Assembly (NCBI GenBank): GCA_900318115.1
Contig: ONJJ01000020.1
Location: 1-64,000, forward strand
Length of the DNA: 64,000 nucleotides
Source of the DNA: an uncultured Prevotellaceae bacterium
Lineage (GTDB): Bacteria; Bacteroidota; Bacteroidia; Bacteroidales; Bacteroidaceae
Direction: 5' to 3'
Positions 5,531 through 61,622 of the stretch are shown here, one piece after another; within the stretch, counting starts at the first letter, position 1; every line of letters starts with the position of its first letter. The position numbers and the translations under genes were made by a program. Below the pieces are notes generated by a model, which saw nothing but the letters and a program-made list of their open reading frames with translations, was not told the DNA's origin and searched no databases.

Positions 5531-7603
5531 TCAGTTGATGAGGAAAATCTTCTGCCGGCCGCGATAGGTGGCACGCACGGTGGCACGACCATCGACGACG
5601 GGGCTGACCTGGAACGTCACGCCGGGGTCGCTGGAAGTGGCCTTCAGTTCGGAGCCGGCCCGCAGCAGGCCATAGACCTGATAGCGGTTGCACTCCGTGT
5701 AGCCATTGGCATTGGTGCTGTAGATAGGCGTGGCGGGAATGTTCAGGCGCTGGCCATCGACGGTGATGATGACCTCGGGCGCAGAGTAGGCCATGGGGCT
5801 GTCGGGGATGTTCACGGCGCCGTTCTTGCCGAAGGCGATTCCGTGGAGGTCGAAGAGGCCCCGCGGGCGCTGGGGTTGCTGGCGGCGTCCCCACTGCTGA
5901 CGTCCCTGCTGCTGAGGTTCCTCGACCTCCGGACCTTCGGCAACGAGGTAGATGGCGTGCTTGCCCGTGAGGCCTTCCACGGCCTCAGCCTTCGTGCTGA
6001 AGACCCGTGGCTCGCGCGGAGCATCGGCAGGAATATCTATGACGGCGATCTCACGGCCCTGCCAAGTTGTGTTGGCGTAGGGGCCATCGAGCATCACATG
6101 AATCTTGAATGCGCCGTGGCCGCCGGGGGTGAGCAGTAGGCTGAGCTGTGTGTGGTTGCCGGGCTTCGTACCTTCGAAGGCAGGCACACCCTTTTGCGTC
6201 TGTTCCAGACCGCCGAAGCCGAAGTACTTGAAGCCCACGATGCCGCCGTTCTTGATGCCCGCCAGGTCCATGTGATTGCGCCACACATCGTGGTTGTCCT
6301 GCATCCATTCATTAGAGCCAGGACCGCTCATGTAGCATGCGATGCCCGCGCTATAATACTGATAAGGTGGCAAGCCGAAGATCTGGAAGCCCTCGCTGGT
6401 TACCTCGGCACCCGTGTACTCGTTGCCGTCAGCAGCCTTTGCGGTCCACTGGTTGTTGGCAGTGAAGGGGTCGTAGGCGGTGATGCGCACCTGTCCGCCC
6501 TTGGCCACCGCTTTCTTGTCCCACTCAATCTTCACGGGAGCCACCATCGGTTGGCGGGCATTGCCGAAGCCGCGGGGAGGACGATGGTAGAACACGTACC
6601 ACTGGCCGTTGATCTCCTGCAGCGAGCCGTGGGTGTTGTGGGCGGCATTGGAGGTGACGAGCCGGGAACCGTCTTCACTGAGCACCACGCCACGGCTATC
6701 GACGAGCACGCCGCCAGAGCGCCAAGGCCCCAGGGGCGAGTCGCCATAGGCATAGCGCAAGGCAGAGTTCGTGTTGCCCAAGCCGTATTCCTTGCCGCTG
6801 TAGCCCGAGAAGACCATCACGTACTTGTTGCCCACCTGACGAATACTGCTGGCTTCGAAGAAATTGAAGTCCAACGGGTTCTGCCCCTGATAGAGGGCGG
6901 GATAGGTGGAGCCTTCCTTGTCCAGCAGACGGCCATCGGCAGAGCAGGCAGGGATGAACGGGTCTATCAGTTCCGTGCCGGGACGTTTGCTGTACATCGT
7001 GTTCTGGTCCAACTGGCAGGCCGTGCTGTGCTGGAAGCCGTAGAAGACGTAGGCACGGAAGCCCTTGTCGAAGTCCTTATCCTTCTTGTCGGTGATGTTC
7101 TCAATGAACACCGACGGGTCGAAGTCAATCAGCGAACCTTCCACACAACGGGTGCCTTCGGCATTCAGGTTCACGGGGGTGAAGGGGCCGTCGGGGCGGT
7201 CGCTCTTGCAGACCATGGCAACGCGTCCCCATCCGCGGGAGTGCGGATAGAGCCAATAGGTCTTCTTGCCGGTGGCTTTGTCCCTGACTTCCACGAGGTC
7301 GGGAGCATACATCGTATCCCACTGGCCACCCGTGAACCAGGTGAAGATGGGACCTTCGTCGCGCCACTGCGTCAGGTCCTCGACGGGAGCTGACCACATA
7401 CGGATGTCTGGACCACAGTAGGCGGTGTTGGTAACGTCGTGGGAGCCAATGATGTAGGCACGGAACTTGCCTGGCTGGTCGGGGTCCTCGAAGACACGCG
7501 GCTCGCCATCGGGAAGGTGTTCCCACAGGGGAAGATAGGGGTTCTGGGCACGGCCGGCAACTGCCAGTGCGACGAAGGTTAGCAGGAGGAAGAAACGATT
7601 CAT
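5531..7603 (-). CDS. GH43 family glycosidase with carbohydrate-binding C-terminus
   Basis: A 690-residue secreted protein with signal peptide MNRFFLLLTFVALAVAGRAQ. Residues 21 to about 350 form a GH43-type five-bladed propeller: NPYLPLWEHLPDGEPRVFED opens the first blade with its general-base Asp region, then IIGSHD, MYAPDLVE and FNFFEASSIR carrying the probable acid Glu. The later part (roughly 390-560) resembles a CBM6-type module of the kind that usually follows these enzymes, with a Q/R-rich linker (about 570-590) and a final beta-rich domain. Family members act on arabinose, xylose or galactose linkages; the substrate cannot be read here. It is monocistronic and converges on GH20. Confidence 0.85.
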   Translation of the reverse strand: MNRFFLLLTFVALAVAGRAQNPYLPLWEHLPDGEPRVFEDPDQPGKFRAYIIGSHDVTNTAYCGPDIRMWSAPVEDLTQWRDEGPIFTWFTGGQWDTMYAPDLVEVRDKATGKKTYWLYPHSRGWGRVAMVCKSDRPDGPFTPVNLNAEGTRCVEGSLIDFDPSVFIENITDKKDKDFDKGFRAYVFYGFQHSTACQLDQNTMYSKRPGTELIDPFIPACSADGRLLDKEGSTYPALYQGQNPLDFNFFEASSIRQVGNKYVMVFSGYSGKEYGLGNTNSALRYAYGDSPLGPWRSGGVLVDSRGVVLSEDGSRLVTSNAAHNTHGSLQEINGQWYVFYHRPPRGFGNARQPMVAPVKIEWDKKAVAKGGQVRITAYDPFTANNQWTAKAADGNEYTGAEVTSEGFQIFGLPPYQYYSAGIACYMSGPGSNEWMQDNHDVWRNHMDLAGIKNGGIVGFKYFGFGGLEQTQKGVPAFEGTKPGNHTQLSLLLTPGGHGAFKIHVMLDGPYANTTWQGREIAVIDIPADAPREPRVFSTKAEAVEGLTGKHAIYLVAEGPEVEEPQQQGRQQWGRRQQPQRPRGLFDLHGIAFGKNGAVNIPDSPMAYSAPEVIITVDGQRLNIPATPIYSTNANGYTECNRYQVYGLLRAGSELKATSSDPGVTFQVSPVVDGRATVRATYRGRQKIFLIN

Positions 7604-33427: not shown

Positions 33428-35332
33428 TCACTTTTTACTTTCTTTAGGGATTGCCAGGCGGCACGCTCCCCTCAGGGCGACATCGTAGGTGGGCCATCCC
33501 CTCCTCCGTGCCTCCGTCTCCAAGGCGGCGCGTTGCCAGCTGGGCAGGCTGGCATCCAGCACCACCAACTTCGGAAAGAACACTTCCGCCACCTCCTCCA
33601 GGCTTCCTCCCCTGAATCCCCTCGTAATCCACAACACATCCACCGCCGAGGAAGCAGTTTTTCCCGCTGAAGAAGGGGCAGCATCCAGCGCCAAGGAAGC
33701 GGAAGCAGTTTTTCCCGCCGAGGAAGCAGTTTTTCCCGCTGAGGAAGCAGTTTTTCCCGCTGAGGAAGTGTGGGCAGCGGTTTTCCCGCTGCCTTCTTCT
33801 TTTCCCCCATCCAGCATCACCGCCGTCATCCCCATAGCGGCCACCGCCTTCCTCCCCCCGAGCACCACGGGCTCCGCCGTCAGGCGCCTCTTCCAGAAGC
33901 TGTTGGCGATATACACCATTCCCGAATCTGCCCGCTCCGGCTGGGGCATCAGCAGCCAGCTCTGCTCCGGCGAGGCGATGAGGTGCAGGGCCGGACAACG
34001 CCAGTTGTTGTACACCACCAACTGCGGCACCGCCTTCCGGCTCCAGAAATCCGGGATGACTGCCCCCGGCAACTGAGTCTCCACGTGCATCACCCACAGC
34101 TGAGCACCCACCAACCATCCTACGCCTTTTGCCATCCAGGCAGCACCTGCCGTCCACACCAGCCCCGTAACCATCACAGCCATAGCACCATAGACCAGCA
34201 CCGTCGTCAACGGCACCAGCACGATGCTGAACAGCGCGCCGTACAACGGATATTGGTGGAAATACAGCAGCACCAACGGCCACGTGAACAGCTGCGCACA
34301 CACCGACACCGCCAACAGCTTCAGAGGCCAAAGCAGACGGTAGCGGTCCAGACGAAACAGAACGAAGCGCCAGCGGGCATAGCACCACTTGACGAAAGGT
34401 TGATAACCAAACAAGATACCGGCCACCGCCAGACACGACAGCTGGGCACCGACATCAAAAAGGTACACCGGGCGCACCAGCAACATCAGCAGCACCGTGG
34501 CCAGCAGCACATTGGCACCCTGCCGCCGCCGATGCACACAGGACAGCAGCACCAGCAACGAGGTCATCAGCGACGCCCTCACCAACGACGGCGGCAAGCC
34601 AGCCACGAAAGCATAGCCCCAGATGAAGGCCACGACAAGCAGTGACAGCGGCCACCGCCAGCGAGAATAGGTCAGACGAGTGGTCAGCAACATGACAAAG
34701 ACACCCACGATGATGCCTAAATGCAATCCTGACAGGGCCAGCAGGTGGCTGGCGCCGGCCGCAGCATAGAGGTCCCGGGTGTCCCGGGACAAACGGGAGC
34801 GGTCGCCTAAGGAGATGGCGGCCACGACAGCAAGCTGCTGCTCCGTCAGTCCCGATGCGCGCAGACTCCTGAGCAGCCGTTCGCGCACTCGCAAGGCAGC
34901 GTTTCTGAGATAGGGCTCTCCCGCCTTGTCCTTCCACGCAACACGCTCCTCCCCCACCTGAGCCTCGGGCGCACTCACCCATCGCCACCGCCGATAGTCG
35001 AACTCATCGGGATTGCCGCGATTCACGGGCGGCCGCTCCATGCTACCCCATGCCGTCTGCACCCCGCCGGCATAGGCGGCATACCTGGCGAATCCCACGA
35101 TGGCAAAGAACAAGGCCACCAATGCCATGAACAGAGGCCTGCCGACAAAGATCGAACGATCCGCCTGCCAGCGATGCGCCAGCCATGCCGCCAGGGCTAT
35201 CAACGCAGCAGAGCCCCAGAGGCAGGCCCCCAACCAAGGAGGCACAGCCACTGAGGCTCTGTAGAACAAGGCATCGGCCGCAACGATTCCCGCCACAAGC
35301 GATGCTGAGAGCAAGATCACCGGGCGCTGCAT
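33428..35332 (-). CDS. comEC: ComEC/Rec2-family competence membrane protein
   Basis: ComEC forms the inner-membrane channel for single-stranded DNA uptake. The 634-residue protein has N-terminal helices, a short DUF4131-like region, and the competence domain with GDRSRLSRDTRDLYAAAGAS followed by HLLALSGLHLGIIVGV, LPPSLVRASLMTSLLVL, FDVGAQLSCLAVAGILF and PLYGALFSIVLVPLTTVLVY. No metallo-beta-lactamase domain follows, as in many Bacteroidota forms. The C-terminal tail contains a tandem seven-residue repeat (SSAGKTA units, about residues 515-562) encoded by 21-bp DNA repeats. It lies 34 bp downstream of rpe. Confidence 0.92.
   Translation of the reverse strand: MQRPVILLSASLVAGIVAADALFYRASVAVPPWLGACLWGSAALIALAAWLAHRWQADRSIFVGRPLFMALVALFFAIVGFARYAAYAGGVQTAWGSMERPPVNRGNPDEFDYRRWRWVSAPEAQVGEERVAWKDKAGEPYLRNAALRVRERLLRSLRASGLTEQQLAVVAAISLGDRSRLSRDTRDLYAAAGASHLLALSGLHLGIIVGVFVMLLTTRLTYSRWRWPLSLLVVAFIWGYAFVAGLPPSLVRASLMTSLLVLLSCVHRRRQGANVLLATVLLMLLVRPVYLFDVGAQLSCLAVAGILFGYQPFVKWCYARWRFVLFRLDRYRLLWPLKLLAVSVCAQLFTWPLVLLYFHQYPLYGALFSIVLVPLTTVLVYGAMAVMVTGLVWTAGAAWMAKGVGWLVGAQLWVMHVETQLPGAVIPDFWSRKAVPQLVVYNNWRCPALHLIASPEQSWLLMPQPERADSGMVYIANSFWKRRLTAEPVVLGGRKAVAAMGMTAVMLDGGKEEGSGKTAAHTSSAGKTASSAGKTASSAGKTASASLALDAAPSSAGKTASSAVDVLWITRGFRGGSLEEVAEVFFPKLVVLDASLPSWQRAALETEARRRGWPTYDVALRGACRLAIPKESKK
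33648..33790 (-). repeat. 21-bp tandem repeat inside comEC
   Basis: Units of the form GAGGAAGCAGTTTTTCCCGCT (plus strand) occur at 33648, 33699, 33720 and 33741, with a degenerate copy to 33790. The unit is 21 bp, so copy-number change keeps the frame. It encodes SSAGKTA repeats. Confidence 0.8.
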
Positions 35333-54550: not shown

Positions 54551-54778
54551 GTAGGGACATACCCCCGTGTATGTCCATCGGGGGCTGTGTGCATGTCCAT
54601 CGGGGGCTGCGTGCATTTCGGACATACACGGGGGTATGTCCCTACGGTGAACGTATGTCCATCGGGGGATGCGTGCATTTCGGACATACACGGGGTATGT
54701 CCCTACGGTGGACGTATGTCCATCGGGGGCTGTGTGCATTTCGGACATACACGGGGGTATGTCCCTACGGTGGACGTA
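54551..54778 (+). repeat. three 62-bp tandem palindromic repeats
   Basis: Units begin at 54593, 54655 and 54716 (62, 61 and 62 bp). Each contains the stem GGACATAC/GTATGTCC around ACGGGG and the phrase ATGTCCATCGGGGGCTG. A leading inverted piece (54551-54576) is the reverse complement of the unit's hairpin end. Frames through it have no meaning as proteins. Confidence 0.88.
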
Positions 54779-54797: not shown

Positions 54798-54813
54798 TGA
54801 AAAGAAAAATTGC

Positions 54814-54903
54814 AGCACTTTAGCACTTTTTGATGTTTAAGAACTGATATTCAGAGAAATAAAAGAGTGCTTGAAGGGTGCTCTAAGGGTGCTAAAGTGC
54901 TCC
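54814..54903 (+). repeat. GTGCT repeat cluster upstream of the VirE gene
   Basis: AGCACTTTAGCAC (54814-54826) faces a series at 54864-54903 with four GTGCT units about 11 bp apart (AGAGTGCTTGA, AGGGTGCTCTA, AGGGTGCTAA, AGTGCTCC). A related AGTGCTAAAGTGCT lies after the gene at 57445-57458. Confidence 0.6.
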
Positions 54904-55002: not shown

Positions 55003-55063
55003 ATCGTCTAACAAGCAAACTGCCATAAAAATCCATTAAAACTCATCAAACAAACATCAAAAA

Positions 55064-55180
55064 CCATCAATAAGCCATCAATAAAACATCAATAAAACAT
55101 CAAACAACCATCAATAAACCATCAATAAACCATCAATAAACCATCAATAACCCATCAATAACCCATAAATAACCCATAAA
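55064..55180 (+). repeat. 11-bp tandem leader repeat (CATCAATAAAC)
   Basis: About ten copies of CATCAATAAAC-like units, nearly free of G on the plus strand, run up to about 15 bp before the VirE-type ATG. They look like iterons or an unstructured leader. Confidence 0.8.
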
Positions 55181-55194
55181 AAACACCAAAAACT

Positions 55195-57369
55195 ATGAAA
55201 AAAGAAATCTACAGAGCTCCTGAAGCGAGCAAGATTAGGATGACCTCCTACCGCAGCTATGGCCCCAAACATGCTACCATGAGGAGCCTTCCCCTGAAAT
55301 CCCTGATTGAACTGCTGCACGACGGTTCCCACCGCGCCACCGTGGCGGAACTGCGCGACGCGCTGCCCGACGGACGCGGCGCCACCATCGACCACCCCGA
55401 GATCTGGAAGGTGGCGACCATCTGTCCGGCTGCGGAATATGTGCGCAAGGAGGGCGGAATGCGGCTGAAGCAGTTCAACGGAGTGGTGCTGCTCGACGTG
55501 CAGGACGTCTATACCGAAGAGGCGGCAGCGCGCGTGAAGCAGACGGCGGCACAGCTGCCGATGACGCTTGCCGCCTTTGTGGGGTCCTCGGCGATGAGTG
55601 TGAAGGTACTGGTGCGCTACTGGCCCGAGGACGACAGCCTGCCCGGCACCCTCGAGGAATTGGAGAGGCTGCACGCCGCCGCCCACCAGCGGGCCGCCGC
55701 GCTCTACTCCACCCTATTGGGGCGCAAGCTGAAGGAGCAGCCGACGGAGGGCATCGCAGACACCTTCCGCCTGAGCATCGATCCCGAAATGTACGTCAAC
55801 GAGGAGGCAGTGCCGCTGCGCGTGAGCGTCGCCGCCCCGCAGCAGGAGCAGCCGGAGCCTCCCGGTCCGCCAGCGGACAGCGCGCACTACTGGTACTTCT
55901 CCCGACTGTTCATGAAGGCAAAGGAGATGGCCCTGGATACCCTGCGCGCCGACGGCCGCGACCCCCAGCACGAGCCACAGCTCTTCCTCGAAGAGGTCAC
56001 CCGCCACTGCCATGAGCTGCGCATACCGCTGGCAGAGGCCCGCATGCGCATCGTGGAAGACGAGGAGCCACGGCGCGCCGCGGAGTACCGCAACTTCGTC
56101 AACGACTACTACACCACCCACGAACAGCGCATAGCGCCCAACAGCAGCAGGGCGCAGAGCCTGCGACAGCTGGAACAGATGCTGCAGGAGGACTATGAGT
56201 TCTACAAGAACGACATCAACGGCACCACCTATTACCGGCCGCGCCACACCAGCGGCCGCTGGCAGACGCTGATCCCCGCCAAGCGCAAGGGCATCGCCAT
56301 CGAGGCCATGGAACGGGGCATCGGCGTGACGACGAAGGTAGTGGAGGACTACCTCGCCTCGGACCGCATACCGCTGCGCAACCCCGTGCGCGACTTCCTT
56401 GGCCAGGTGCGCGGGACCTGGGACGGACGGGACCGCATCACGGAGCTGGCGCTGTGCCTGGGCGGAGAGAACCCGCGGCTTCCGCAGTTCTTCATGATAT
56501 GGTTCCAGGCCATGGTGCAGCAGTGGATGGGCATACATCCCGAGCACGGCAACGCCGTGGCACCCCTGCTCTGCGGACCGCAGGGCACGGGCAAGAGCAG
56601 CTTCTGCCGCGCACTGCTGCCGCAGGTGCTGGAATGGGGCTATCTGGACCACATCGACCTGGGCAAGAAGAACGAGGTCATCCGCTCCCTGGGACAGTTC
56701 CTGCTCATCAACATCGACGAGTTCGACCAGTACCGAGGCAACTCGCAGCGCGGCCCGCTGAAGAACCTGTTGCAGCTGGCCGACGTGAGGGCGCGCAATA
56801 TGTACGAGTCGAATTTCAGCATCCGACAGCGCATGGCATCGTTCATCGCCACCTGCAACCCCATGGAGGTGCTCATCGACGAGACGGGCTCCCGACGATT
56901 CATCTGCGTCAAGGTGACCGAGGACATCACGTTGCCCAAAGACTTGGACCACAGCCAGCTGTACGCCCAGGCGGTGGACTGCATCGAGGAACGACGCCGC
57001 CACCCGGAACGCTTCAGTCCGGAGGACCCCAGGGGACGTTGTTTCTTCACCGACGAGGAGCGCGAGGCCGTGGAGGAGAACAACCGCCACTTCCGCGTGC
57101 GCAGCGGGGCGGTGGAACGCTTCGAAGATCTCTTGCAGCCACTGGCAGAACGACGCCAGCGCAACGACACCTCGGTGGAGCTGTCGCGCTCGGAGGTCTT
57201 TGACTACATCTGCCGCCACAGCCAGCAACGGTTCAGCAACGAAGACAAACGACAGCTGTACGCCCGTATCGACCAGCTGGCCGCCGAGGGCGAGCTCTAT
57301 CGCCGACGCGCCAACCGTGCTGCCCTTTATCACTTCAAATTGAAGGGAAATCCTATCTTTTCGGTCTGA
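55195..57369 (+). CDS. VirE/VapE-type P-loop protein with BT4734-like N-domain
   Basis: This 724-residue protein matches the Bacteroidota VirE/VapE layout. A BT4734-like N-terminal domain (roughly 20-210, with DHPEIWKVATICPAAEYVRK and VGSSAMSVKVLVRY) precedes a connecting helical region and a superfamily-III-like ATPase (about 370-600). Walker A is GPQGTGKSS (461-469, Lys467), followed by LLINIDEFDQYRG as Walker B and SRRFICVKV. The C-terminus has a winged-helix-like end. Such proteins are thought to act in replication or mobilisation of phage and island DNA. It is GC-rich and follows a G-poor tandem-repeat leader. Confidence 0.85.
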   Translation: MKKEIYRAPEASKIRMTSYRSYGPKHATMRSLPLKSLIELLHDGSHRATVAELRDALPDGRGATIDHPEIWKVATICPAAEYVRKEGGMRLKQFNGVVLLDVQDVYTEEAAARVKQTAAQLPMTLAAFVGSSAMSVKVLVRYWPEDDSLPGTLEELERLHAAAHQRAAALYSTLLGRKLKEQPTEGIADTFRLSIDPEMYVNEEAVPLRVSVAAPQQEQPEPPGPPADSAHYWYFSRLFMKAKEMALDTLRADGRDPQHEPQLFLEEVTRHCHELRIPLAEARMRIVEDEEPRRAAEYRNFVNDYYTTHEQRIAPNSSRAQSLRQLEQMLQEDYEFYKNDINGTTYYRPRHTSGRWQTLIPAKRKGIAIEAMERGIGVTTKVVEDYLASDRIPLRNPVRDFLGQVRGTWDGRDRITELALCLGGENPRLPQFFMIWFQAMVQQWMGIHPEHGNAVAPLLCGPQGTGKSSFCRALLPQVLEWGYLDHIDLGKKNEVIRSLGQFLLINIDEFDQYRGNSQRGPLKNLLQLADVRARNMYESNFSIRQRMASFIATCNPMEVLIDETGSRRFICVKVTEDITLPKDLDHSQLYAQAVDCIEERRRHPERFSPEDPRGRCFFTDEEREAVEENNRHFRVRSGAVERFEDLLQPLAERRQRNDTSVELSRSEVFDYICRHSQQRFSNEDKRQLYARIDQLAAEGELYRRRANRAALYHFKLKGNPIFSV

Positions 57370-57443
57370 GAAAGCACGAAAGCACGCTACGAGCACCATA
57401 CAAAGCACTTTTTAAAGACTTATCAAACAAACGATTACACCGA

Positions 57444-57461
57444 AAAGTGCTAAAGTGCTCC
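57444..57461 (+). repeat. AGTGCTAAAGTGCT motif before the HU-like gene
   Basis: AAAAGTGCTAAAGTGCTCC repeats the motif found at 54889-54903. The AGCAC-rich stretch after the VirE stop (57373-57410) is related. Confidence 0.55.
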
Positions 57462-57516
57462 AATTTTTCAATAAAAATAAAAACAGTAATAAATCTAAAC
57501 AAATTAAGAATATTAT

Positions 57517-58140
57517 ATGGCTATTCATTTCACCATCAGCAGGCGCGCGACCCTGCAGAGCGAGAAGAGCGCGGCACGCGAAGTGCTCGTCCCACGCCTG
57601 CAGTCGGCACGGCCCTGCAACGTCGTGGACTACATCGACAACAGCCTCTGGCCCTCGAAACTGAACGGCGGCGACCTGGCCCACAGCCTGGCGGAGATAC
57701 AAAGCATCATGCTACACGAACTGGCGGACGGGTCGCCAGTGACCCTGCCGGGTATCGGCACCTTTCAGGTGAGCATCAAAGGCAAGATAGACACCGACAA
57801 GAACGGGGGTGTGACGGGCTGCGACGTACATGTGGAAGGGGCCGACAAAGAGGAGACGGAACGCATCCTTCGCGAGCTCTTTAAGCATAAACAAACCATA
57901 CAACACCGCGACGTCATGCTGGCCTTCGAGCGCACCCTCTCAACCCACCGAACCACGACACTGCTCCAACAGCTGGTGGCCGAAGGCCGACTTATCCTCG
58001 AGGGCAGTGGCAGCCAGACGCGCTACCGCGCCGCCGAAGGCGAGTTCACCGCCCCTCCACCCACTGCCGAAGGCGGCTCCACTACCCCGGCAACAAGCGA
58101 CAGCGAGCAAGCCACCGCCCCAACCACTGAAACGCCATGA
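57517..58140 (+). CDS. HU-like DNA-binding protein with C-terminal extension
   Basis: This 207-residue protein has an HU/IHF-like domain of the Bacteroidota type (residues 1-100), from MAIHFTISRRATLQSEKS and VVDYIDNSLWPSKLNGGDLA to DGSPVTLPGIGTFQVSIKGK. Residues 110-165 look like a winged helix (RDVMLAFERTLSTHRTTTLL...GRLILEGSGSQTRYR), and the tail is Pro/Thr/Ala-rich and disordered. HU-type proteins often neighbour VirE/VapE genes in Bacteroidales. It follows the VirE gene by 147 bp and overlaps the transposase start by ATGA, so the two are translationally coupled. It may organise DNA for the transposase, which is inference. Confidence 0.8.
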   Translation: MAIHFTISRRATLQSEKSAAREVLVPRLQSARPCNVVDYIDNSLWPSKLNGGDLAHSLAEIQSIMLHELADGSPVTLPGIGTFQVSIKGKIDTDKNGGVTGCDVHVEGADKEETERILRELFKHKQTIQHRDVMLAFERTLSTHRTTTLLQQLVAEGRLILEGSGSQTRYRAAEGEFTAPPPTAEGGSTTPATSDSEQATAPTTETP

Positions 58141-59666
58141 CCACAGACGAGAAAAGAGCCAAAGGCATCCCCCTCGATGACATCAAACCGAGCCAACACC
58201 GTCGAGCTAACTGGCAGGACTACGAGGATGCCGCGATATACATGGTCACCATAGTCATCGATGGGCGCACCCCGCTCTTGGGCACGCTGACCGGCAATTT
58301 CCGCGCCCCTCGCGGGACAGCAGACTTCCCCCACCTGGTGCCCAGCCCGCTGGGCCGCCTCATCCTCGAACAGGAGCTGCCTAAGATCCACACATTCTAC
58401 CCACAGGTGGAGGTGTGGAAAGCAACCCTCATGCCAGATCACCTCCACCTCCTCCTCCGCGTCAACGCCACTCTGCCACGAGGGCGGCAGTTGGGGGATG
58501 TCATCAGCGGATTCAAGGGGGGATGCAGCCGCGCTTGGTGGGCGCTCCAGGAGGCAGCAGCAGGAACCCCAGCGCCACAGCCACCAGCAGCACCAGCAGC
58601 ACCAACAGCACCAACAACACCAATAACACCAACAGCACCAACAGCACCAATAACAGGGCCGAACGGCCCTGCCACCACCGCCCAAGGAAGCGCACCAGCC
58701 AGAAACAGCACCACCGCCCAAGGAAGCGCCCCAGCCAGAAACAGCGCCCCAGCCGGAAACAGCACACCAGCCCCAAACAGCACCACCGCCCAAGAAAGCG
58801 CACCAGCCAGAAACAGCGCACCAGCCAGAAACAGCGCCCCAGCCAGAAACAGCACCCCAGCCGGAAACAGCACACCAGCCCCAAACAGCACCCCAGCCGC
58901 AGTGGCGGCGCCGTTCGGCGCCGTCCCCATCCCGCGCCGCCCCCTCTTTGAGCCTGGCTACCACGACCGCATTATCAAGCGGCCCGGAATGCTGGACACC
59001 ATCAAGCGCTACATGGCCGACAACCCCCTCCGCGCCATCATGCGGCGCCAGCTGCCACGCCTGCTGGAACGCCGCCTGCACCTCTTCATCAACGGGCGAG
59101 AGTACGCCGCCTTTGGCGGCATCTTCCTCCTGAAACGCCCCGAGAAGCGGCAGGTGTTCTTCCACCGCAGGGATCCACAGTCAGGCATGCCCACAGAGCT
59201 GACGACTGCCTACCAGAAAGAACGCGCAGCCCTACTCGCTGAAGCCCGCGAGGGCGTGGTCCTCGTCTCACCTGCTATCTCCAAGGGAGAACGAGGTGTC
59301 ATCGATGCGGCTCTGGAGGAACGGCTACCCATCATCATGCTGCAAAAGGAACCTATCGGCCCCTACTGGAAACCCGAACGCCGACGATTCGAAGCTTGCG
59401 CCACCGGCAACCTACTCATCCTCGCACCTTGGGGGCTGGATGAAGAAATCAGGAGGAACACAGCGGGCGGCAGCACAACGGCAGGCACAGCGGGCAACGG
59501 CAGCACAACAGCGGCGGGCGCCAGCATTGCCAGCACAGCGGCGAACGCCGCTGCCACCACGGCCGCCATCTCGGACTACGCCCGCTTCCACCACCTGAAT
59601 GACTTGGCGGAAGAGATATGCCTGAGCGCGGAATCCTGCATCCTGCGCATCCATGAGATCACCTAA
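58137..59666 (+). CDS. REP-associated tyrosine transposase (Y1) fused to Rossmann-like domain
   Basis: The first 300 residues form a Y1/HUH transposase of the RAYT type. The HUH pair His102-Leu-His104 is in ATLMPDHLHLLLRV, FKGGCSRAWW follows, and Tyr292 is in IKRYMADNPLRA. Between them about 120 extra residues (about 140-262) are Pro/Ala/Thr/Asn-rich and built from short imperfect repeats. Residues about 365-445 (GVVLVSPAISKGERGVIDAA, then ERLPIIMLQKEP and RRRFEACATGNLLILAPW) resemble a DprA/LOG-type Rossmann domain. A low-complexity Ala/Thr linker and helical C-terminus follow. It overlaps the HU-like gene. RAYTs act on REP palindromes, here probably those upstream. Confidence 0.82.
   Translation: MTTDEKRAKGIPLDDIKPSQHRRANWQDYEDAAIYMVTIVIDGRTPLLGTLTGNFRAPRGTADFPHLVPSPLGRLILEQELPKIHTFYPQVEVWKATLMPDHLHLLLRVNATLPRGRQLGDVISGFKGGCSRAWWALQEAAAGTPAPQPPAAPAAPTAPTTPITPTAPTAPITGPNGPATTAQGSAPARNSTTAQGSAPARNSAPAGNSTPAPNSTTAQESAPARNSAPARNSAPARNSTPAGNSTPAPNSTPAAVAAPFGAVPIPRRPLFEPGYHDRIIKRPGMLDTIKRYMADNPLRAIMRRQLPRLLERRLHLFINGREYAAFGGIFLLKRPEKRQVFFHRRDPQSGMPTELTTAYQKERAALLAEAREGVVLVSPAISKGERGVIDAALEERLPIIMLQKEPIGPYWKPERRRFEACATGNLLILAPWGLDEEIRRNTAGGSTTAGTAGNGSTTAAGASIASTAANAAATTAAISDYARFHHLNDLAEEICLSAESCILRIHEIT
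58556..58925 (+). repeat. in-frame low-complexity repeats in the transposase gene
   Basis: C/A-rich trinucleotide-like runs (58560-58660) are followed by imperfect CCAGCC-AGAAACAGC units (58690-58900) coding for APARNS/APAGNS repeats. They separate the HUH and Tyr parts without breaking the frame. Confidence 0.75.
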
Positions 59667-60533: not shown

Positions 60534-61622
60534 TTAACATTCTTTCAGAAATGCGCCCTCTAAATGGGCTCCTCGGAGGAAATCGGTGGCAGACATACGG
60601 CGTTTTCCGGCCAATTGGAGGTCTGTCAGGCGGAGATAGCCGTCGGAGAGGCGTACGAGGAGAGAAGCCTTCCCGGACTCTCCCCCGGCGGGGAGGAGTT
60701 TCAGTTCCACCTCGTTTTCAGGGGAGCTGGGCGCCTCGGCTGTGGGAGAGGTGGCGAGGGGGCCTACTTTTTCTGCAAAGAAGACCTTGAGCTGGGTCTC
60801 GCGACCATCGGCGGTGCAAAGGGTGGTCCAGGCGCCAGGATAGGGCGAGAGGCCGCGGATGAAGTCGTAGGCGGACTTCACGGTGTGCAGGCTCCAGCGG
60901 ATCTGGGTGTTGTCGCGGGAGAGCTTGGGAGCGGGACGGAGGGCAGACTCGGCGGGAAAACCGCCGAGCACACTATCTTGATCAATGGGGGCGATGGTGC
61001 CGGCGGCGATGTCGTCCACGGTGCGGAGGACGAGGTCGGCACCGAGGTACATGAGGCGGTCATAGACGTCGCCGACGGTGTCGGTGTCGGCGATGGGCGA
61101 CGGCACGCGGTGGATGATGCGCCCGGTGTCGATGTCATGATCGAGGAAGAAGGTGGTGACGCCCGTCTCGGTCTCGCCGTTGATGACGGCCCAGTTGATG
61201 GGAGCCGCGCCGCGGTACTGGGGCAGCAGGGCGGCATGGAGGTTGAAGGTGCCCATGGGCGGCATGGCCCATACTACCTCGGGCAACATACGGAAGGCCA
61301 CAACGATCTGGAGGTCTGCCCGGTAGCTGCGCAGCTGTTCGAGAAAAGCCTCGTCCTTCAGGCGCTCGGGCTGCAGGACGGGGATGTCGTGCTCCAGGGC
61401 GAACTGCTTGACGGGTGACGCCTGCAGGGTGTCGTGATGACGGCCCACCGGTTTATCCGGCATCGTGACGACTGCCACGATATTATATTGGTTCTCCACC
61501 AATTTACGAAGGGACTCAACGGCAAACTCGGGAGTGCCCATGAAGATGATTCGAAGGGAAGACTCTCCCCCTGCCCTCTCTGTCAGGGAGGGAGCTGAAT
61601 GATTTTGACTGGATGTATTCAT
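60534..61622 (-). CDS. fmt: methionyl-tRNA formyltransferase
   Basis: Fmt formylates initiator Met-tRNA. The formyltransferase domain shows IIFMGTPEFAVESL, FRMLPEVVWAMPPMGTFNLH and LLPQYRGAAPINWAVINGE, with catalytic Asn127, His129 and Asp165 (DHDIDTG). The C-domain ends LAGKRRMSATDFLRG. At 362 residues it is about 40 longer than usual for two reasons. Extra residues 1-22 (MNTSSQNHSAPSLTERAGGE) are encoded by palindromic C/G-rich DNA, and an insertion at about 287-319 (GPLATSPTAEAPSSPENEVE...) splits the C-domain. It lies 26 bp downstream of the ClC gene. Confidence 0.96.
   Translation of the reverse strand: MNTSSQNHSAPSLTERAGGESSLRIIFMGTPEFAVESLRKLVENQYNIVAVVTMPDKPVGRHHDTLQASPVKQFALEHDIPVLQPERLKDEAFLEQLRSYRADLQIVVAFRMLPEVVWAMPPMGTFNLHAALLPQYRGAAPINWAVINGETETGVTTFFLDHDIDTGRIIHRVPSPIADTDTVGDVYDRLMYLGADLVLRTVDDIAAGTIAPIDQDSVLGGFPAESALRPAPKLSRDNTQIRWSLHTVKSAYDFIRGLSPYPGAWTTLCTADGRETQLKVFFAEKVGPLATSPTAEAPSSPENEVELKLLPAGGESGKASLLVRLSDGYLRLTDLQLAGKRRMSATDFLRGAHLEGAFLKEC
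60666..60764 (-). repeat. repeat-like in-frame insertion in fmt
   Basis: The stretch encodes about 33 residues absent from usual Fmt C-domains and contains C/G-rich runs (CTCCCCGCCGGGGGAG and CCCCCTCGCC-like) resembling intergenic elements. Confidence 0.45.
61554..61622 (-). repeat. palindromic 5' extension of fmt
   Basis: On the plus strand CCCTCTCTGTCAGGGAGGG includes a short palindrome; related sequence CCCCTCTCTGACGGG occurs in the chrA-like gene at about 32084. It encodes SAPSLTERAGGE before the Fmt core. Confidence 0.5.

Follow-up and report, generated by a model that had tools for sequence, protein, structure and literature searches.

REP-associated tyrosine transposases (RAYTs or TnpAREP; REP, repetitive extragenic palindrome) have been described as recognising a tagged hairpin in single-stranded DNA (ssDNA) and cleaving there (PMC3733652, PMC8266576, PMC6006769). 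Cleavage of REP ssDNA by a RAYT has been reported in vitro (PMC3733652), and the mechanisms by which REP elements are disseminated have been called poorly understood (PMC8266576). DprA, on the other side of the present comparison, is an ssDNA-binding protein by which the loading of RecA is mediated (PMC4066776). We have analyzed a stretch of 64,000 nucleotides from an uncultured Prevotellaceae bacterium (contig ONJJ01000020.1, positions 1 to 64,000; the window), in which positions 58137–59666 of the forward strand code for a RAYT of the HUH/Y1 type, 509 residues long, with a C-terminal DprA-like domain. With a probability that we estimate at about 0.7, this gene is a member of a group of Bacteroidales RAYTs that carry such a domain and work by the REP mechanism proposed below. 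The main new finding is the enrichment of hairpins in the linkers of these genes, with a conserved flank and a hairpin type that tracks the lineage of the enzyme, REPs inside the transposase gene being already known for TnpAREP subclass 2.4. The open-access literature searched gave no description of a RAYT with a DprA-like domain, and nothing to the point on REPs in Prevotella or on ShosA together with DprA.

Subclass 2.4 holds RAYT group 4, and its in-frame REPs in the transposase gene, generally located between the HuH and Y motifs, were called unique in its description, which also gives NH[IFV]H and YIxNNP motifs and a median length of 194 residues and lists no C-terminal extension (PMC6006769). 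The genes analyzed here also have in-frame REP-like hairpins between HuH and Y, but their motifs are mostly DHLH or DHIH and YxxDNP (DHLH and YMADNP in the window protein), their products are mostly 300–590 residues long and they carry the DprA-like domain. Given these other motifs, and a C-terminal extension absent from subclass 2.4 as described, they look like a subclass of their own that shares this habit. Compared with RAYTs at large (E. coli TnpAREP, PDB 4er8), the HUH and Y..NP motifs, the TnpAREP fold and the presence of REP-like hairpins in the gene are alike. The differences are the DprA-like domain, a long variable linker and the tags, which in other members of the family are often not GT[AG]G (GTAT, CTGTT, GTTGGTG).

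Hairpins in the linker of the transposase genes

In the window protein the HUH motif, PDHLH, occupies residues 100–104 (58434–58448, forward strand, with His102 and His104), and the predicted catalytic tyrosine, Tyr292 (59010–59012, same strand), opens the motif YMADNP (residues 292–297). Both histidines and the tyrosine are invariant in four alignments (A1, A2, A4 and A5). A2 has 23 rows; A4 and A5 contain 48 and 45, respectively, of 67 relatives retained from 80 (those with both motifs and free of X, not longer than 480 residues and having at least 120 residues after the tyrosine), each together with the window protein, which gives A4 49 rows. Both motifs are found in 87 of the 88 family open reading frames (ORFs) examined, the exception (L149) being a fragment; all 87 have PDH.H or PEH.H, and a wider set has one PNHIH (L229). 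Comparison of the predicted model with the PDB gives a TnpAREP (Y1) fold for the N-terminal half. Between the HUH and Tyr halves there is a low-complexity linker (residues about 138–267, 58548–58937, forward strand), of which residues 164–260 have a predicted local distance difference test score (pLDDT) below 50 in the AlphaFold model of the whole protein. It contains 18-nt tandem repeats that code for PARNSA-like units and are located at 58673–58900 between two of the three internal hairpins.

These three REP-like hairpins have GTGG directly 5' of a perfect 8-bp stem, with both orientations represented: the first (58654–58675, reverse strand) and the second (58902–58923, forward strand) within the linker coordinates, the third (59536–59557, reverse strand) in an insertion of the C-terminal part. 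The tag-bound scan (GTAG, CGTC or GTAA, loop of at least 3) within 2.5 kb of the eight RAYTs of the window's own genome, gene interiors excluded, gave none, and the internal hairpins were detected afterwards by tag-free scans that included the interior of the gene.

We have counted perfect-stem hairpins only (stem of at least 8, loop of 2–6) in 87 of 88 RAYT loci, i.e., 80 chosen high-scoring and mostly full-length ones plus the eight of the own genome, leaving out the fragment L149 (another ORF, L205, has 74 residues after the tyrosine and lacks most of the C-domain). The linkers contained 69 hairpins in 20049 nt, or 3.44 per kb, against 1.4 hairpins by codon shuffle. Densities of 0.1–0.2 per kb were obtained for the N-core (5 hairpins in 28188 nt), for the C-part (7 in 52146 nt) and for 282 control ORFs (40 in 381219 nt). 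At least one hairpin was present in 52 of the 87 linkers, and in five of the eight from the own genome. The pattern was repeated in the wider set (161 of 168 ORFs kept, 139 after dropping identical cores), with 82 hairpins in 24849 nt of linker, where 1.8 would be expected, and 27 in the 144165 nt outside the linkers of these genes.

The sequence next to the stem was compared in 23 groups comprising 56 copies of same-loop hairpins located in, or at most 400 bp from, one gene. The better-conserved flank, which was chosen post hoc both in the data and in the shuffles, had a mean identity of 0.716 over 6 nt, and none of 2000 shuffles reached this value (shuffled mean 0.395, standard deviation 0.036). 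Copies in both orientations were found in 13 of the 23 groups, and in 18 the stems varied and were nevertheless all perfectly paired. From one lineage to another the conserved flank changes; it reads GTGG in the window gene, GTAT or GTAG at two loci (L163 and L171), CTGTT in L015 and GTTGGT(G) in L208. The type of hairpin tracks the relatedness of the RAYTs (Mantel r 0.668 for 52 genes, against at most 0.199 in the permutations). The hairpin core was common to 60 of the 118 pairs of genes with an identity of at least 60%, to 23 of the 305 at 45–60% and to 1 of the 903 below 45%. Since orthologues are included, these pairs are not independent events, and common descent of old insertions would fit equally.

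Hairpins were also found outside the RAYT genes. The CNGCGGNTTTCCCGCNG type has 12 copies in the own genome and 31 in 31 genomes of the genus (backwards control 0 and 2); in the own genome it mostly has GTGTG or a similar sequence 5' of the stem, and it resembles hairpins in and beside another RAYT gene there (L014). Among the genomes scanned for the CTGCGGC type (counts below), one (G114) has copies on a further contig (C51) with the same extended 5' tag as the copies inside its RAYT gene. The RAYT gene is thus a main home of these hairpins, and for the window type the sole home seen. Single copies with the GTGTG tag were noticed in other genes and places: an in-frame hairpin at 60948–60968 in fmt (60534–61622, reverse strand), at a place where the alignment with PDB 4iqf shows an eight-residue insertion; a copy, CAGCGGTTTTCCCGCTG, at 33773–33793 of the window; and a REP-like hairpin at 5756–5776 of locus L013, in the gene just 3' of a RAYT, which gene looks sigma-factor-like by eye.

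One could also see the linker hairpins as RNA elements, or as accidents of Ala/Pro/Ser-rich coding, rather than REPs. The low complexity of the linkers, the tandem repeats in that of the window, the lack of outside copies of the window hairpins by the pattern used and the fact that both flanks are somewhat conserved would all agree with this. Against it stand the excess over codon shuffles, the one flank far above its shuffles, with copies in both orientations, and the extended tag that the G114 copies on another contig have in common with those of the RAYT gene. We consider this explanation rather improbable.

The DprA-like domain and a proposed mechanism

The C-terminal domain (residues 311–496, 59067–59624, forward strand) has a DprA-like Rossmann fold in two AlphaFold models compared with the PDB, the top matches being ShosA and DprA. 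It resembles DprA (H. pylori, 4ljk, 4ljl and 5mll; S. pneumoniae, 3uqz) in the fold and in a conserved arginine position. It differs in being fused to a predicted nickase, in its changed Gly-rich stretches and in that no SAM or winged-helix companion, either of which may be absent in DprA, was seen in the models or by Pfam, no fold-based search for them having been made. ShosA of E. coli APEC O1 (PDB 8zva) is, in contrast, a protein of its own. Arg344 (59166–59168, forward strand) is an arginine in 31 of 33 sequences and aligns with R115 of S. pneumoniae DprA and R52 of H. pylori, to which a role in ssDNA binding has been ascribed (PMC4066776); Lys412 (59370–59372, forward strand) is a lysine in 32 of 33 and aligns with K175 of the S. 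pneumoniae protein. These correspondences were drawn by eye from a profile alignment of weak E-value. Single-sequence searches of the PDB and Pfam gave nothing for the domain at their thresholds, which is no proof of absence, and at the thresholds used neither Pfam and NCBIfam over 49 members gave a convincing family for it nor PADLOC a match.

The first-pass annotation of the window, made by reading the sequence, had pointed to His102, His104 and Tyr292, quoted a C-terminal stretch with a DprA/LOG-like look and called the protein a RAYT. The residues and the stretch are indeed in the ORF, the two motifs, present in all but one of the family ORFs examined, exceed chance, the RAYT assignment agrees with the AlphaFold model, and the likeness of the C-terminus to DprA was recovered in both models and in weak DprA profile matches.

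From these features we infer nicking, ssDNA binding, hairpin insertion and a role in the spread of REPs. The HUH/Y1 half would recognise a tagged REP hairpin in single-stranded DNA, for example on the lagging-strand template, where Tyr292 would cut and rejoin the hairpin DNA. The DprA-like half would grip the adjacent or released single strand by means of a basic patch (R344 and K412), and may protect it, anneal it or pass it to recombination, by which REP copies would be placed elsewhere. In-frame REP insertions would be accepted in the unstructured linker that joins the two catalytic halves, and we propose that this tolerance has made the gene a main residence of its low-copy REP. Read most simply, the fusion would mean that one protein both cuts the REP and holds the strand. 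A bolder version, which we put forward tentatively and believe rather doubtful, is that this single protein excises the tagged REP from ssDNA and also brings the strand to annealing or to RecA, so that REPs would have an insertion route of their own, absent from other RAYTs. The gene would then be producer and archive of its own REP, and through the REP inside the coding sequence the enzyme may also bind the gene or regulate it.

Alternatively, the C-domain might not hold ssDNA but act as a nucleotide sensor of the SLOG type, by which the transposase would be turned on or off. The best fold matches, ShosA and DprA, and the coincidence of R344, less surely of K412, with residues of the DprA ssDNA patch speak against a sensor, which we regard as possible and on balance unlikely.

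Several results weigh against the RAYT-DprA reading. The NCBIfam model REP_Tyr_transpos matches the window protein with E 6.9e-7 and 29.2 of 80 bits, below the curated cut-off; it is found at E <= 0.01 in all 49 members of A4, the first of them with 34.9 of 80 bits. With the equivalog cut-off missed, the protein belongs to a divergent subclass of Y1/TnpAREP and is not a REP_Tyr_transpos equivalog. The profile search of the PDB with the C-domain had DprA as its best matches at whole-sequence E-values of only 0.037–0.040, and the printed alignment stretches reach only 0.066–0.071. The pairing of K412 with K175 sits at the low-confidence end of one profile alignment. The Gly-rich stretches of DprA are altered, with SPAISKGE in the place of SGLAKGID, and given this replacement the ligand could differ from that of DprA. 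On the side of the hairpins, 64 of the 139 genes of the wider set have at least one in the linker and 75 have none with a perfect 8-bp stem, including three of the own genome (L009, L010 and L011). The other flank is also above its shuffles (0.379 versus 0.202), orthologous loci being included. The pattern GTGGCNGNNNCGTTCGNNNCNG has three sites in the own genome, which is 87% complete, all inside the window RAYT gene, and three non-palindromic matches in the other 30 genomes of the genus (the backwards control gave four over the set). By this pattern the window-type hairpin has no copy outside its own gene, so that its mobility is hypothetical. Finally, the CTGCGGC type is of low copy, with 22 places in 7 of 10 chosen genomes (1–6 in each), 12 of them inside RAYT ORFs.

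A natural fusion of a predicted REP-type nickase with a DprA-like domain is a candidate for the missing step in the spread of REPs. The in-gene hairpins provide many of the RAYT-DprA enzymes with a predicted cognate substrate, and tags and loops that differ by lineage would suit a study of enzyme–substrate co-evolution.

Distribution in the Bacteroidales

The own genome (74 contigs, 3.3 Mb) has at least eight RAYT-DprA genes, that of the window and at least seven others. The seven paralogues are 27–62% identical to the window protein, and all eight have in common the HUH and Tyr motifs and the C-terminal region. The Y1 fold and this copy number are what would be expected if the gene were an ordinary active insertion sequence of the IS200/IS605 type, yet the mean identity given for the IS200 subclass is 99.4% (PMC6006769), and the tyrosine motif is the Y..NP of the TnpAREP class, not Y..NQ. 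An insertion sequence of that kind is very improbable here.

A single-sequence search with the window protein matched 15 of 41 genomes and none of the 16 outside the genus; profiles found a wider range. At E <= 0.001 the A2 profile has matches in 96 of the 139 genus genomes, 17 of the 18 near-complete ones among them; in eight of the 96 the best E-value does not reach 1e-40, and ordinary RAYTs may account for these. The A4 profile, scored on only the best candidates in each genome, gave matches in 173 of the 295 order genomes and in 235 of the 395 in a phylum sample. Among the matches listed, one-piece matches running from the N-domain to the C-domain were found in 12 of the 295, namely the own genome and eleven others in six families (G156, G193, G219, G249, G323, G339, G349, G367, G383, G412 and G431); in one more genome (G277) the two parts sit in separate frames. 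In the other genomes of the order the matches listed stop by about profile position 196, i.e., they correspond to TnpAREP without the C-domain, and in the phylum sample none of those listed outside the own genome went beyond position 193. Genomes of the same family outside the genus had no match (three in the order sample, the same three plus one in the phylum sample). Among the relatives are Hallella mizrahii and Prevotellamassilia timonensis, together with rumen and gut metagenome-assembled genomes (MAGs) labelled Prevotella, Bacteroidaceae, Muribaculaceae and Paludibacteraceae; many genomes of the sample are MAGs. By the matches listed, the RAYT-DprA fusion is a family of a part of the Bacteroidales and is common in the genus.

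The VirE and HU genes upstream

Upstream of the RAYT gene there is an HU-like gene (57517–58140, forward strand; Pfam HU-HIG, E 1.1e-9) that overlaps it by the four bases ATGA, and upstream of this a VirE-type gene (55195–57369) with a VapE-like domain (E 7e-27) and a BT4734-like_N domain (E 1.1e-25), whose N-terminal stretch also matches the PADLOC PrimPol model (E 1e-24). The first-pass annotation had described this arrangement, which the coordinates and Pfam domains bear out, and had proposed that the VirE ATPase, the HU-like DNA bender and the RAYT-DprA protein form one three-protein system acting on 62-bp palindromes next to the gene.

The common strand and the overlap of the HU and RAYT genes are in favor of such a system. 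So are VirE-like matches at six other RAYT loci, perhaps slightly above expectation by a rough estimate from the six VirE-like matches in the 3.3-Mb genome. These six (L150, L154, L202, L222, L251 and L263) came from tblastn with the window VirE over 168 RAYT loci (1.54 Mb, some places being included twice, from two collections); L150 and L251 are one contig, so the matches lie in five places. The same search with the window HU matched the window alone, and the pair was absent from the flanks of the seven paralogues in the own genome (about 4 kb a side; one contig, that of L012, has 3954 nt). The three genes are thus rarely neighbours at other RAYT loci. Pfam HU-HIG detects HU-like proteins that tblastn misses, one of them about 3.5 kb from a RAYT of the own genome (L010) without a VirE. 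Conversely, on contig C61 of the own genome (L018), where no RAYT of the DprA-fusion family was found, a VirE gene precedes an HU-HIG gene in the same orientation. On the neighbourhoods of the paralogues and the tblastn over the 168 loci we have rejected the three-gene system, which appears highly unlikely. As the pair occurs elsewhere and is absent beside the RAYT paralogues, VirE and HU are probably a pair of their own, adjacent to each other and separate from the RAYT, which would be a chance neighbour with no conservation of the neighbouring genes.

The 62-bp GTAG-tagged repeat is located at 54551–54768, about 3.5 kb upstream of the RAYT, with VirE in between, and so is not adjacent to the gene; the idea of palindromes near the gene holds only for the three perfect hairpins inside the ORF, which had been overlooked. 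Apart from lying 3.5 kb away, the repeat showed no link to the RAYT, of which it is a possible substrate. Its palindrome pattern has 11 matches on four contigs of the own genome (C20, C21, C24 and C34) and none in the backwards control. The internal hairpins of the gene are the better candidate substrate.

The region 54551–54768 has four GTAG-tagged palindromes (GTAG plus an 8-bp stem), of which the first is inverted to the others in a REPIN-like manner. Between this array and HU, a 33-nt inverted repeat (91% complementary, 54804–54836 and 57437–57469) brackets VirE and could represent the ends of an inserted unit, and a tandem repeat with an 11-nt period (CATCAATAAAC-like, eleven overlapping copies) is located directly upstream of VirE, at 55039–55203.
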